A stretch of DNA of 64,000 bases from Flavimobilis rhizosphaerae (GTDB taxonomy: Bacteria > Actinomycetota > Actinomycetes > Actinomycetales > Cellulomonadaceae), in NCBI RefSeq assembly GCF_014852685.1, contig NZ_JACZDF010000002.1:62001-126000 (forward strand). The letters are read 5' to 3'. Both the position numbers and the translations under genes were made by a program. Position 1 is the first letter of the stretch. Each line of letters opens with the position of its first letter. Under the pieces are notes generated by a model. The model was not told the origin of the DNA. It saw nothing but the letters and a program-made list of their open reading frames with translations, and did no database searches. This document shows positions 21,426-24,485 of this stretch, one piece after another.

Positions 21426-23240
21426 CTACTTCGCGTCTGCGTAGCTCGTCACGGACGTTGCGGTGAGGCGGAACTCGACGCCGTCGTCGCCGGACGGGCC
21501 GAAGAGGATGCGTCCGGCCTCGATCGCGGACTCCTCGACGATCCGCACGACCTCGTCGGCGAGGTGCTCGGGCGTGTGGACGACGACCTCGTCGTGGAGG
21601 AAGAACACGAGGTGAGGGCCGGCGGTCGCGCCAGGCACGCCGATGCCGTCGCCCGCCGTGTCCGGTGGCGCGTCCGCGACCGCGAGCGCGCGGAGGCGCT
21701 GCCGGAGCACCGCCATCCAGCACAGCGCCCACTCGGCGGCGGTGCCCTGGACGACGAAGTTCCGGGTGAAGCGACCCCAGGCGCGGGCGCGCGCGGTCTC
21801 GGCGGACGCCGACGAGCGTTCGGCGCGCTCCGCCGCACGCTCGTCCGACGGCACCTCGTGCGCTCCCTCACCGGGCGGCTCGGCCTGCACGCCGGCGGGC
21901 ACGGTGCCCGGACGCCCCCACGCGCCGCCGCCGGGTGTCACGGTGCCGGACCCGGGCAGCGGTGACGTCCGTCCGAGCCACGTCATCACCTGCTCGCCGC
22001 GCTCGCCCGCGGCGGCGGCGCGCTCGACGAGACCGATCGCGGCGGGGAACGCGCGCCGCAGTTGCGGCAGCACCTGCCCCGAGACGCCCTGCGTGCCGCC
22101 GTACATCGCGCCGAGCATCCCGTACTTCGCGTGCTTCCGGTCGACGACGGCGCCCGACGCGACGATGCCCTCGTACATGTCGGCGGCGCGTCCCGCGCGG
22201 GCCATCGCCGTGTCCCCGCTCATCGCGGCGAGCACGCGGGGCTCGAGCTGGGCGGCGTCGGCGACGACGAGCCGCCAGCCGTCGTCGGCCTGCACGGCGT
22301 CCCGCACGACGTGGGGGAGCTGGAGGGCGCCGCCGCCGTCGGACGCCCAGCGTCCGGTGACGACGCCGCCGACGACGTAAACGGGACGGAACCGACCCTC
22401 GTGCACCCACGTGTCGAGCCACGTCCAACCGTTCGCGGTGAAGAGCCGGGACATGGACTTGTACTCGAGGAGGGGCGCGACGACGGGGTGGTCGACGGCC
22501 TGGAGCTCCCACTTCGACGTCGAGGTGACGGGCAGGCCGGCGCGGCGCAGGGCGCCGAGGAGGTCGACGGGCGAGTCGGGATTGACAGGTCCGACGCCGA
22601 GCGCGTCGCGCACCTCGGCAGCCTTGGCCTCCATGCGGGCCGGCCGGTAGCCGTCGGGCACGCGCGCGCCGAGCTCGCGCGTGAGGATCGCGTCGTGGAC
22701 GTCGGCGCGCCATGGCAGTCCAGCCGCGTGCATCTCCGCGGCGACGAGCGCCCCGACGGACTCGGCGGCGAGGAGCGTGCCGAGGCGCGCAGCGTGGCGG
22801 CCCGCGGTCTGCAGCGCCATGAGCTGGGCGCGGAGCTCGACGACAGGGTCGGGCGGCGCGGTGGCGCGGCCGAGCTCGAAGAGCGGCTCGGCGGTCGCGG
22901 GCGCACCGGGTGCGGGGGCGGGGCGGCGGGGTGCGTCCCACGCGTCGGGGGCGCTGCGCGCGAGGACCGACGACGCCGTCCACAGCGAGTGCCGGAGGAT
23001 CGCCCTGCACAGACGCAGGTCGTGGCAGCGGTCGACGCGCACACCCGCGGCGAGCAGCGGCGGGTAGACGTGCTCGGTGTCTGACCACGTCCAGCGAGGG
23101 TGGAGCGTGCGCTCGAGCTCGGTGATGCTCGAGGCGAGCGCGTCGTCGTCGACCGTGCGCAGGATGCGCGGCGGGCCGTCCGCGCTCACGGTCGTGAGCG
23201 CGGTGCGACCGTCCGGTCCGGGGACGACGACGACGTACAT
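21426..23240 (-). CDS. Family-A DNA polymerase without 5'-3' exonuclease (bifunctional exonuclease/polymerase type)
   Basis: A 604-residue protein. Residues 1-160 form a reduced 3'-5' exonuclease-like region in which I do not see the canonical acidic set. The polymerase part has motif A VVADAAQLEPRVLA (D328), motif B R368-K372-Y380 in RKHAKYGMLGAMYGG, and motif C HDEVVVH. Leu376 occupies the place of the Phe/Tyr that influences dideoxynucleotide discrimination in other family-A enzymes. A low-complexity Gly/Pro/Glu-rich insertion follows the O-helix region. GGAGAA precedes ATG 23240. Such second PolA-like genes are widespread in actinobacteria; a repair role is presumed. Confidence 0.87.
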   Translation of the reverse strand: MYVVVVPGPDGRTALTTVSADGPPRILRTVDDDALASSITELERTLHPRWTWSDTEHVYPPLLAAGVRVDRCHDLRLCRAILRHSLWTASSVLARSAPDAWDAPRRPAPAPGAPATAEPLFELGRATAPPDPVVELRAQLMALQTAGRHAARLGTLLAAESVGALVAAEMHAAGLPWRADVHDAILTRELGARVPDGYRPARMEAKAAEVRDALGVGPVNPDSPVDLLGALRRAGLPVTSTSKWELQAVDHPVVAPLLEYKSMSRLFTANGWTWLDTWVHEGRFRPVYVVGGVVTGRWASDGGGALQLPHVVRDAVQADDGWRLVVADAAQLEPRVLAAMSGDTAMARAGRAADMYEGIVASGAVVDRKHAKYGMLGAMYGGTQGVSGQVLPQLRRAFPAAIGLVERAAAAGERGEQVMTWLGRTSPLPGSGTVTPGGGAWGRPGTVPAGVQAEPPGEGAHEVPSDERAAERAERSSASAETARARAWGRFTRNFVVQGTAAEWALCWMAVLRQRLRALAVADAPPDTAGDGIGVPGATAGPHLVFFLHDEVVVHTPEHLADEVVRIVEESAIEAGRILFGPSGDDGVEFRLTATSVTSYADAK

Positions 23241-23293
23241 GCCGTCATTCTCCGCCGAGCCACCGACATCGCCTGCAGGAGTACCCTCGTCCC

Positions 23294-23335
23294 ATGACGT
23301 CGAACGCATGGTGGTGGCTGCAGCCGCAGCCGTGA
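23294..23335 (+). CDS. trpS leader peptide with three consecutive Trp codons
   Basis: A 13-codon open frame, MTSNAWWWLQPQP, begins at ATG 23294 and contains TGG-TGG-TGG at 23309-23317. It ends 88 bases before trpS. Three adjacent Trp codons in so short a peptide are very unlikely by chance and are the hallmark of ribosome-mediated attenuation. AGGAG lies 12 bases upstream, which is rather far. TACCCT at 23282-23287 could be a -10 box that would make the mRNA nearly leaderless. Confidence 0.8.
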   Translation: MTSNAWWWLQPQP

Positions 23336-23367
23336 CCTGACGTGTCCACCGAGCTGCCCCGCGCAGC
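23316..23367 (+). promoter_or_regulatory. Putative Trp attenuator before trpS
   Basis: Four short complementary segments follow the Trp codons: 1 = GGCTGC (23316-23321), 2 = GCAGCC (23326-23331), 3 = GCTGC (23353-23357), 4 = GCAGC (23363-23367). Pairing 1:2 with 3:4, or alternatively 2:3, is possible. A ribosome stalled at the Trp codons would cover segment 1 and favour 2:3, preventing 3:4. The 3:4 hairpin is short and lacks a T run, so whether it terminates is uncertain. Confidence 0.55.
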
Positions 23368-23423
23368 CTCGGCAGGTGACCGGTGCGACGGGACGCTCCC
23401 CTCGAGAATCCTGGAGAAGCACC

Positions 23424-24485
23424 ATGTCCGAGACCACGACCCTCGACGCCGCGCGCGCCCGCAGCGCCCGCCTCGAGCAGCAGATCGCCGAGAACCCCGG
23501 CCGGTTCCGCGTCCTCACGGGCGAGCGGCCCACGGGCCCGCTGCACCTCGGCCACTACGTCGGCACGCTCGCCAACCGGGTGCGGCTGCAGCAGTCGGGC
23601 GTCGAGCTCATGCTCATCCTCGCGGACTACCAGGTCATCACCGACCGCGACGACATCGGCGACCTGCGCGCGACGATCCGGGAGATCCTCCTCGACTACG
23701 TCGCGGTGGGCATCGACGTCGAGAAGGCGACGATCTTCACGCACTCGGCGGTGCCCGCGCTCAACCAGCTCATGCTGCCGTTCCTCTCGCTCGTCTCGGT
23801 CGCGGAGCTCGACCGCAACCCGACGGTCAAGGCGGAGACGGCTGCGACGGGTGGCCGCGCGATGAGCGGCCTCATGCTCACCTACCCGGTCCACCAGGCG
23901 GCGGACATCCTCTTCTGCCACGGCAACCTCGTGCCCGTCGGGCAGGACCAGCTGCCGCACCTCGAGATGACGCGCGTCGTCGCCCGCCGCTTCAACCAGC
24001 GCTACGCGACCGACGCCCCGTACTTCCCGGAGCCCGACGCGTTGCTCGCGCCGACGCCGATCGTGCTCGGCACGGACGGCACGAAGATGAGCAAGTCGCG
24101 CGGCAACGCCCTCATGCTCTCGGCGACCGAGGACGAGACGGCACGCTGGGTGAAGCGCGCGAAGACCGACGCCGAGCGGCACATCACCTACGACCCGCAG
24201 AGCCGCCCCGAGGTCGCGAACCTCCTCGACCTCCTCACGCTCGCGACGGGCGAGGACCCGGCGCTCGCGGCGGAACGCATCGGCGACGGCGGCGCGGGTA
24301 CGCTCAAGCGCGAGCTCACCGAGGCCCTCGTCGAGCACCTCCGGCCGCTCCGGGAGCGGCGTGCCGCCGCCGCGTCCGCGGGCGACGACGTGCTCGAGGT
24401 CCTGCGGCGCGGCAACGAGCGCGCGAACGAGCTCGCGGACGCGACGCTCGCCGACGTCCGACGACTTATGGGGACCGACTACTGA
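23424..24485 (+). CDS. trpS: Tryptophanyl-tRNA synthetase
   Basis: A 353-residue class I aminoacyl-tRNA synthetase. The HIGH-type motif is HLGH at 41-44 (RPTGPLHLGHYVG), and KMSKS is at 221-225 followed by RGN. Further landmarks are DYQVITD and the tryptophan-pocket segment PVGQDQLPHLEM. It is the usual length. TGGAGAAG precedes ATG 23424. It is preceded by a Trp-rich leader peptide, so charging level of tRNA-Trp probably sets its expression. Its stop overlaps the next gene (TGATG). Confidence 0.96.
   Translation: MSETTTLDAARARSARLEQQIAENPGRFRVLTGERPTGPLHLGHYVGTLANRVRLQQSGVELMLILADYQVITDRDDIGDLRATIREILLDYVAVGIDVEKATIFTHSAVPALNQLMLPFLSLVSVAELDRNPTVKAETAATGGRAMSGLMLTYPVHQAADILFCHGNLVPVGQDQLPHLEMTRVVARRFNQRYATDAPYFPEPDALLAPTPIVLGTDGTKMSKSRGNALMLSATEDETARWVKRAKTDAERHITYDPQSRPEVANLLDLLTLATGEDPALAAERIGDGGAGTLKRELTEALVEHLRPLRERRAAAASAGDDVLEVLRRGNERANELADATLADVRRLMGTDY

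Follow-up and report, generated by a model that had tools for sequence, protein, structure and literature searches.

The second trpS gene of Flavimobilis rhizosphaerae is very probably controlled by a ribosome-mediated tryptophan attenuator: a transcription-level switch, working through four short RNA segments (segments 1–4), placed in front of a gene for a backup tryptophanyl-tRNA synthetase (TrpRS). The features observed here on which this reading is built are (i) the leader frame, (ii) the conservation of that leader, (iii) the alternative pairings kept among relatives, (iv) the kept geometry of the region, and (v) the presence of a second copy of the gene. The window (that is, the whole 64,000-nucleotide stretch of DNA analysed) had previously received a first-pass annotation, in which a Trp-codon leader peptide and an attenuator were proposed upstream of trpS. 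The attenuator interpretation gains support from the relatives: of 64 family loci, 60 carry a leader with two adjacent Trp codons (a WW leader), and the capacity for alternative pairing has been preserved. The annotation requires amendment in that leader control of trpS had already been published, the trpS in question is a second copy, and the leader is probably transcribed without a 5' untranslated region.

Translation of the region yields the frame originally described, with 13 codons, three adjacent Trp codons and a stop lying 88 bases before the trpS start (Table 1). The segments GGCTGC, GCAGCC, GCTGC and GCAGC likewise lie where they had been placed, with segment 1 overlapping the last Trp codon. 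The 3:4 hairpin is present and no T run was found after it in the window, both as annotated, but its arms are longer than had been noted: the hairpin spans positions 23349–23372 and consists of 9 pairs and one bulged C, with a computed energy of -12.8 kcal/mol. In the window alone, the 2:3 pairing compares with shuffles at z -1.95 (p 0.057). Energy-based folding that placed a model ribosome on the Trp codons kept the window's 3:4 hairpin in every state, and the switch was not seen; since 3:4 is preferred even then, switching would have to depend on the order in which the segments are synthesised. An Rfam scan of the window returned no family, T-box included, at gathering score, and a further Rfam search returned nothing relevant (one weak chance match).

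Table 1. Features of the trpS leader region, in window positions; peptides are given up to the stop codon.
Feature	Sequence	Position	Strand	Remarks
Possible Shine-Dalgarno of the leader	AGGAG	23277–23281	+	Borders the -10 box, 12 bases ahead of the leader ATG; badly spaced
-10 box	TACCCT	23282–23287	+	Ends 6 bases before the leader ATG
Leader peptide frame	MTSNAWWWLQPQP	23294–23335	+	Based on translation and conservation in relatives
Three adjacent Trp codons		23309–23317	+	The first two are the conserved ones
Segment 1	GGCTGC	23316–23321	+	Overlaps the last Trp codon (23315–23317)
Segment 2	GCAGCC	23326–23331	+	Partner is segment 1 or segment 3
Segment 3	CCGAGCTGC	23349–23357	+	Contains GCTGC (23353–23357)
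Segment 4	GCAGCCTCGG	23363–23372	+	One bulged C; contains GCAGC (23363–23367); forms the presumed terminator hairpin with segment 3
Position of the relatives' segment 5	GGGACGCTCC	23390–23399	+	Pairing with segment 3 no better than shuffles (z -0.10)
Shine-Dalgarno of trpS	GGAG	23413–23416	+	From the sequence
trpS, second (auxiliary-type) tryptophanyl-tRNA synthetase gene		23424–24485	+

The Trp codons could, hypothetically, belong to a functionless, GC-rich spacer. The sequence TGGTGGTGG is indeed frequent in the genome, occurring at 50 places (the reversed pattern at 66). In the window it occurs twice, compared with 0.32 expected occurrences; 4 of 100 shuffles match this, and so little can be concluded from the Trp run on its own. 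Shuffling the region upstream of the window's trpS 2000 times gave a short frame containing two neighbouring Trp codons in 1.6% of cases, and such a frame with a -10 box 6–7 bases ahead in none. The spaced pattern -10/ATG/TGGTGG is present a single time in the window and absent from all of 100 shuffles. The chance reading, to which we assign a negligible probability, is refuted by conservation of the leader in the family, where shuffles lead to an expectation of 0.38 such frames, and by the Trp leaders of ten further families.

Within a sample of 150 genomes from the same family (f1; the window's own genome included), 63 carry the window's type of trpS, at 64 places. The 60 loci with a short frame containing two adjacent Trp codons also carry TAnnnT 6–7 bases ahead of it, a combination for which the shuffle expectation is 0.000 of 64. 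The other four loci consist of two with one-Trp leaders (L137, L139) and two with none (L141, L143). Conservation of Trp-rich frames before trpS in relatives had been set in advance as the check on the leader; the frames proved to be conserved, with two constant Trp codons and a variable third (TGG in 35 of the 60 family rows, CGG in 22, CTG in 2 and CAG in 1). Leaders are present in records named Sanguibacter hominis, Oerskovia, Cellulosimicrobium, Promicromonospora, Isoptericola, Puerhibacterium and Antribacter, and were not found in records named Brachybacterium, Actinomyces and Georgenia, among others. Two records, L067 (Sanguibacter keddieii) and L065 (Xylanimonas cellulosilytica), have no leader and a trpS that is 62% identical, as in the Actinomyces records; the names of these two records may be wrong.

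RNA model searches together with protein searches uncovered Trp leaders before the same trpS type in the ten further families (f2, f4, f5, f6, f80, f81, f82, f84, f86 and f87), and a Trp leader was also seen in a Streptosporangiaceae MAG (L090). The letters of the leaders in other families are different: examples include WWPSSRRP, WWRSS, WWWPTS, VLIVRTGWWPSSRRP, MTSVPCRNWWRSS and MMIHTAQWWWPTE, and, among leaders with one Trp, VLTIPCTRWQSL and VKKFSGAWRLS (each followed by a stop codon). Most of these leaders come from a search that required a -10 box, and hence their -10 boxes are not independent evidence. A phylum-wide RNA model search, in which the best 10 candidates per genome were scored and misses are expected, matched 4 of 396 genomes. 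Besides the match in the window's own genome, there were three (L148–L150) with no trpS of this type downstream, and these were rejected as spurious. The order-wide equivalent matched 27 of 396 genomes. Leader-peptide control of auxiliary trpS thus appears to extend, in the sample searched, to no fewer than 11 actinobacterial families. One order-wide match lies before another gene: in G677 (L165:1501-2107), a WW leader with hairpins (MRNDRANWWRLQ, then a stop codon) precedes a 158-aa GNAT acetyltransferase rather than trpS, in a genome with one trpS.

Pairing was compared across 87 sequences in 20 hand-defined groups of very unequal size. Dropped before these counts were L165 (no GGAG before the start), L247 (a doubtful one-Trp leader), the spurious L148–L150, L163 and L164 (repeats of L144 and L145), and L216 (same genome as L171); leader loci L128, L129, L137, L251 and L252 are outside the 87. 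At least one pair within the sample is the same strain twice (L058, L132), a one-Trp match of 29 codons (L200) was counted as no leader, and the place and hairpins of five one-Trp leaders (f2 and f87) led to their inclusion. Every one of the 20 groups has a 2:3 pairing superior to its dinucleotide shuffles, the mean group z being -2.09. When segments were swapped between groups, using one sequence per group, a foreign segment 2 paired equally well or better in 0.35 of cases, against 0.5 expected. Judged by eye, the stem letters differ (GGCTGC/GCAGCC in f1, GGCCGTC/GACGGCC in f81, GCGCTCC/GGAGCG in G256). Conservation of the mutually exclusive pairings (1:2, 2:3 and 3:4) goes beyond the sequence itself. 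In an alignment of 37 family sequences (A1), pairing is possible in 92.2% of cells, a share attained by 2 of 500 shuffles, and the covariation score is likewise attained by 2 of 500. Only 2 pairs show two-sided changes, a number reached by 25 of 500 shuffles; with so little variation in the core stems, the covariation cannot stand on its own as evidence.

The spacing between leader and hairpins is also kept. In 53 of the 60 family rows, the window's included, segment 2 starts at a distance of 17 bases from the first Trp codon, and in six more the distance is 14–20; no exact GCAGCC was found in L135 in this 60-row count, and the window has an overlapping GCAGCC that starts 11 bases after the first Trp codon. 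The leader stop codon, meanwhile, moves among the family rows (WWLR, WWWLP and WWxLxxQP, each ending in a stop), from which we infer that the RNA, rather than the tail of the peptide, is under selection. Going by usual ribosome footprints, segment 2 would stay accessible while a ribosome sits on Trp codon one or two, whereas a ribosome on the third would probably cover part of it, and this fits with the third codon often being something other than TGG.

TAnnnT ends 6 or 7 bases before the leader start in all 60 distinct family rows; the start search required this motif 4–8 bases ahead of the leader start, and every instance fell at 6 or 7. As described in the accessible part of PMC8079986, the -10 of S. 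lividans takes the form TAnnnT with a mean spacer of 6.3, and 17% of the transcripts of this species are leaderless. The position of the -10 box predicts a transcription start at or next to 23294, and, because the box ends 6 bases before the leader ATG, the leader mRNA probably is leaderless, i.e. it would have no 5' untranslated region. The AGGAG 12 bases ahead of the ATG would, as a Shine-Dalgarno, speak against a leaderless start and could indicate a leadered one; Shine-Dalgarno-like words occur at its position in 4 of 60 rows, the window's included. No -35 element stood out by eye in position counts of the family rows. On the minus strand, a divergent frame beginning MYVVVVPGPDG starts at window position 23240, 53 bases from the leader ATG; it presumably resembles a DNA polymerase I-type gene.

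The genome of F. rhizosphaerae contains two trpS genes, and the pair is 35% identical. The window's copy scores 238 bits against the TIGR00233 model, compared with 336 for the other. Its closest solved relative is PDB 1yi8 (E 6.7e-65), which we take to be Deinococcus TrpRS II, an auxiliary enzyme. The window's TrpRS has ADYQ at the position of VDLH in the other genome copy; the His of VDLH presumably matters for indolmycin, and the window's enzyme may have a role in inhibitor resistance.

Leader presence among the relatives goes with two trpS genes. In f1, 59 of 61 leader-bearing genomes have two or more, and the genomes without a leader have one (G015) or two (G039). Sixty genomes were checked outside f1. 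All 28 with a leader (23 WW, five with one Trp) have two trpS over the cut-off, and 28 of the 30 in which none was found before trpS have one (G554 and G595 have two); the remaining two are G599 (a doubtful one-Trp leader, one trpS) and G677, where the leader is before the other gene. G731 and G741 were chosen because of their two trpS copies, and both then showed a WW leader. Several individual genomes stand out. In G001 and G003 (L005, L006), both of the window's genus, the sole trpS is auxiliary-type with a leader; G788 (L160, L245) has two auxiliary-type trpS on one contig, one with a leader and the other without; and at L246, L241 and L233, three loci at which no leader precedes trpS, the gene's own start follows immediately on TAnnnT, such that trpS itself may be leaderless.

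We propose the following mechanism. A ribosome would load on the leaderless 5' end of the transcript, the start of which, from the -10 position, would be at or beside the leader ATG. When Trp-tRNA is ample, the ribosome would run to the stop codon at 23333 and cover segments 1 and 2; segment 3 would then pair with segment 4, and transcription would stop early, presumably at a hairpin without a U run and with or without the help of Rho. When Trp-tRNA is low, the ribosome would stall on the first or second Trp codon, covering segment 1 and leaving segment 2, whose start is 17 bases past the first Trp codon, available to segment 3 once the latter is made. Segment 4 would thereby be left without a partner, and trpS would be transcribed. 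Given that the gene codes for a divergent second TrpRS, the most likely use of the circuit is to supply a backup whenever the main enzyme is starved or inhibited, as is the case in Streptomyces.

A classical intrinsic terminator with a U run was not found in the window; among the 87 relatives, 13 have a T run of at least four just after the 3:4 hairpin and 74 have none. Ten of the 13 belong to the Promicromonospora group, where T runs of 4–6 occur in 10 of 17 rows and point to termination in that group. The candidates for the way in which termination would work are Rho, a hairpin without a U run, and translation. A Rho-dependent variant of the attenuator, in which the leader ribosome or its release gates Rho and the 3:4 hairpin only pauses the polymerase, agrees with the missing T run and has been proposed for actinobacterial cys leaders without terminators (accessible part of PMC1262725). 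By itself, it leaves unexplained why families with different letters retain 1:2, 2:3 and 3:4, and we consider it unlikely.

Translational attenuation, by which the leader would set the opening of the trpS Shine-Dalgarno while 3:4 is no terminator, overlaps partly with the transcriptional attenuator, and both layers could act. It draws on a fifth segment of the relatives, which pairs with segment 3 or with the Shine-Dalgarno. The letters of this segment are GGGCGGCTC in f1 and GTGCAGCCC in f80, pairing with arm 3 and its loop, and in many groups it lies about 8–12 bases before the Shine-Dalgarno. In the set of 87 sequences, 17 of the 20 groups have a 3:5 pairing superior to that of shuffled versions (mean group z -1.51). 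A CTCC stands no more than 22 bases from the Shine-Dalgarno in 56 sequences, where 17.7 would be expected. Shuffling leaves the Shine-Dalgarno more open than it really is in 17 of 20 groups (mean 0.19 in the real sequences vs 0.33). A foreign segment 5 is as good in 0.26 of swaps (0.5 expected), and most relatives, as noted above, have no T run. The window and its genus point the other way. The mean z of 3:5 in the genus is +0.39, the best duplex of the window's GGGACGCTCC region ends 14 bases before the Shine-Dalgarno, and the Shine-Dalgarno of the window is more open than in shuffles (0.63 vs 0.30). Further points against are the lack of 3:5 in G256 (z +1.78) and G751 (z 0.01), the weakness of one or the other sign in f80, f81 and a number of single rows, and the T runs of the Promicromonospora group. 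The fifth segment thus appears to be a feature of many relatives, unsupported in the window, and we regard translational attenuation as unlikely. A further reading, tentative and less likely than not, is a five-segment switch, in which arm 3 would also act as a sponge for an anti-Shine-Dalgarno segment 5, with a translational layer that would have decayed in the window's genus, and which in two relatives would control the only TrpRS. If true, one stalled ribosome would free both the transcription and the translation of the backup TrpRS.

The four-segment attenuator that we favour is, as a well-supported reading of the sequence, of the known Streptomyces trpS kind, here in another lineage. Vecchione and Sello reportedly carried out experimental work on the trpRS1 attenuator of S. 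coelicolor in 2010. An attenuator was predicted before trpS2 of S. avermitilis (Seliverstov 2005, PMC1262725, accessible part), and trpL2 was reported before trpS in S. lividans; the latter leader, MMTRTCTQLWRAA followed by a stop, is described as leaderless, with two hairpins and no U-rich stretch (PMC8079986, accessible part). As far as these partial texts go, the Streptomyces attenuators are like the window's in having a short Trp-codon leader before trpS and competing hairpins, and that of S. lividans also in its lack of a U run. The window differs from S. lividans in lineage and in its three adjacent Trp codons (S. lividans has one), and the likeness is one of layout. T-box control likewise makes a synthetase gene react to its own uncharged tRNA; the window's element, by contrast, gave no T-box match in the Rfam scan and would need a translated leader instead. 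The likeness to Deinococcus TrpRS II (PDB 1yi8) concerns the enzyme alone.

In E. coli trpL, four segments form 1:2, 2:3 and 3:4 with Trp codons at segment 1, and mycobacterial Cys-codon leaders are leaderless and regulatory. The trp operon attenuators of E. coli, Corynebacterium and Streptomyces share the window's four-segment logic (for the actinobacteria, as given in the accessible part of PMC1262725), but they control biosynthesis, whereas the window's element would control a synthetase; actinobacterial trp terminators are, moreover, published there with U runs, which the window's lacks. The mycobacterial leaders resemble the window's as actinobacterial upstream frames that sense one amino acid, albeit a different one, and in 2005 no conserved terminator hairpins were reported for them (same part of PMC1262725). 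In Caulobacter crescentus, ribosome profiling placed a small frame on the trpS mRNA (PMC4117421, accessible part); this is likewise a frame before trpS, but in a proteobacterium and likened here by frame position alone, and the accessible part of PMC4974804 makes no mention of a trpS leader frame. In a search of mainly open-access literature, no title among the matches listed dealt with a trpS leader element in actinobacteria outside Streptomyces.

These results indicate that auxiliary TrpRS genes are under leader control outside Streptomyces as well. The leader was not found in most sampled genomes that have an auxiliary-type trpS as their only trpS; it goes with a second trpS, and can thus serve as a marker for inducible backup synthetases. 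The relatives, with and without a U run and with and without segment 5, form a natural series for testing how attenuators terminate in GC-rich actinobacteria.
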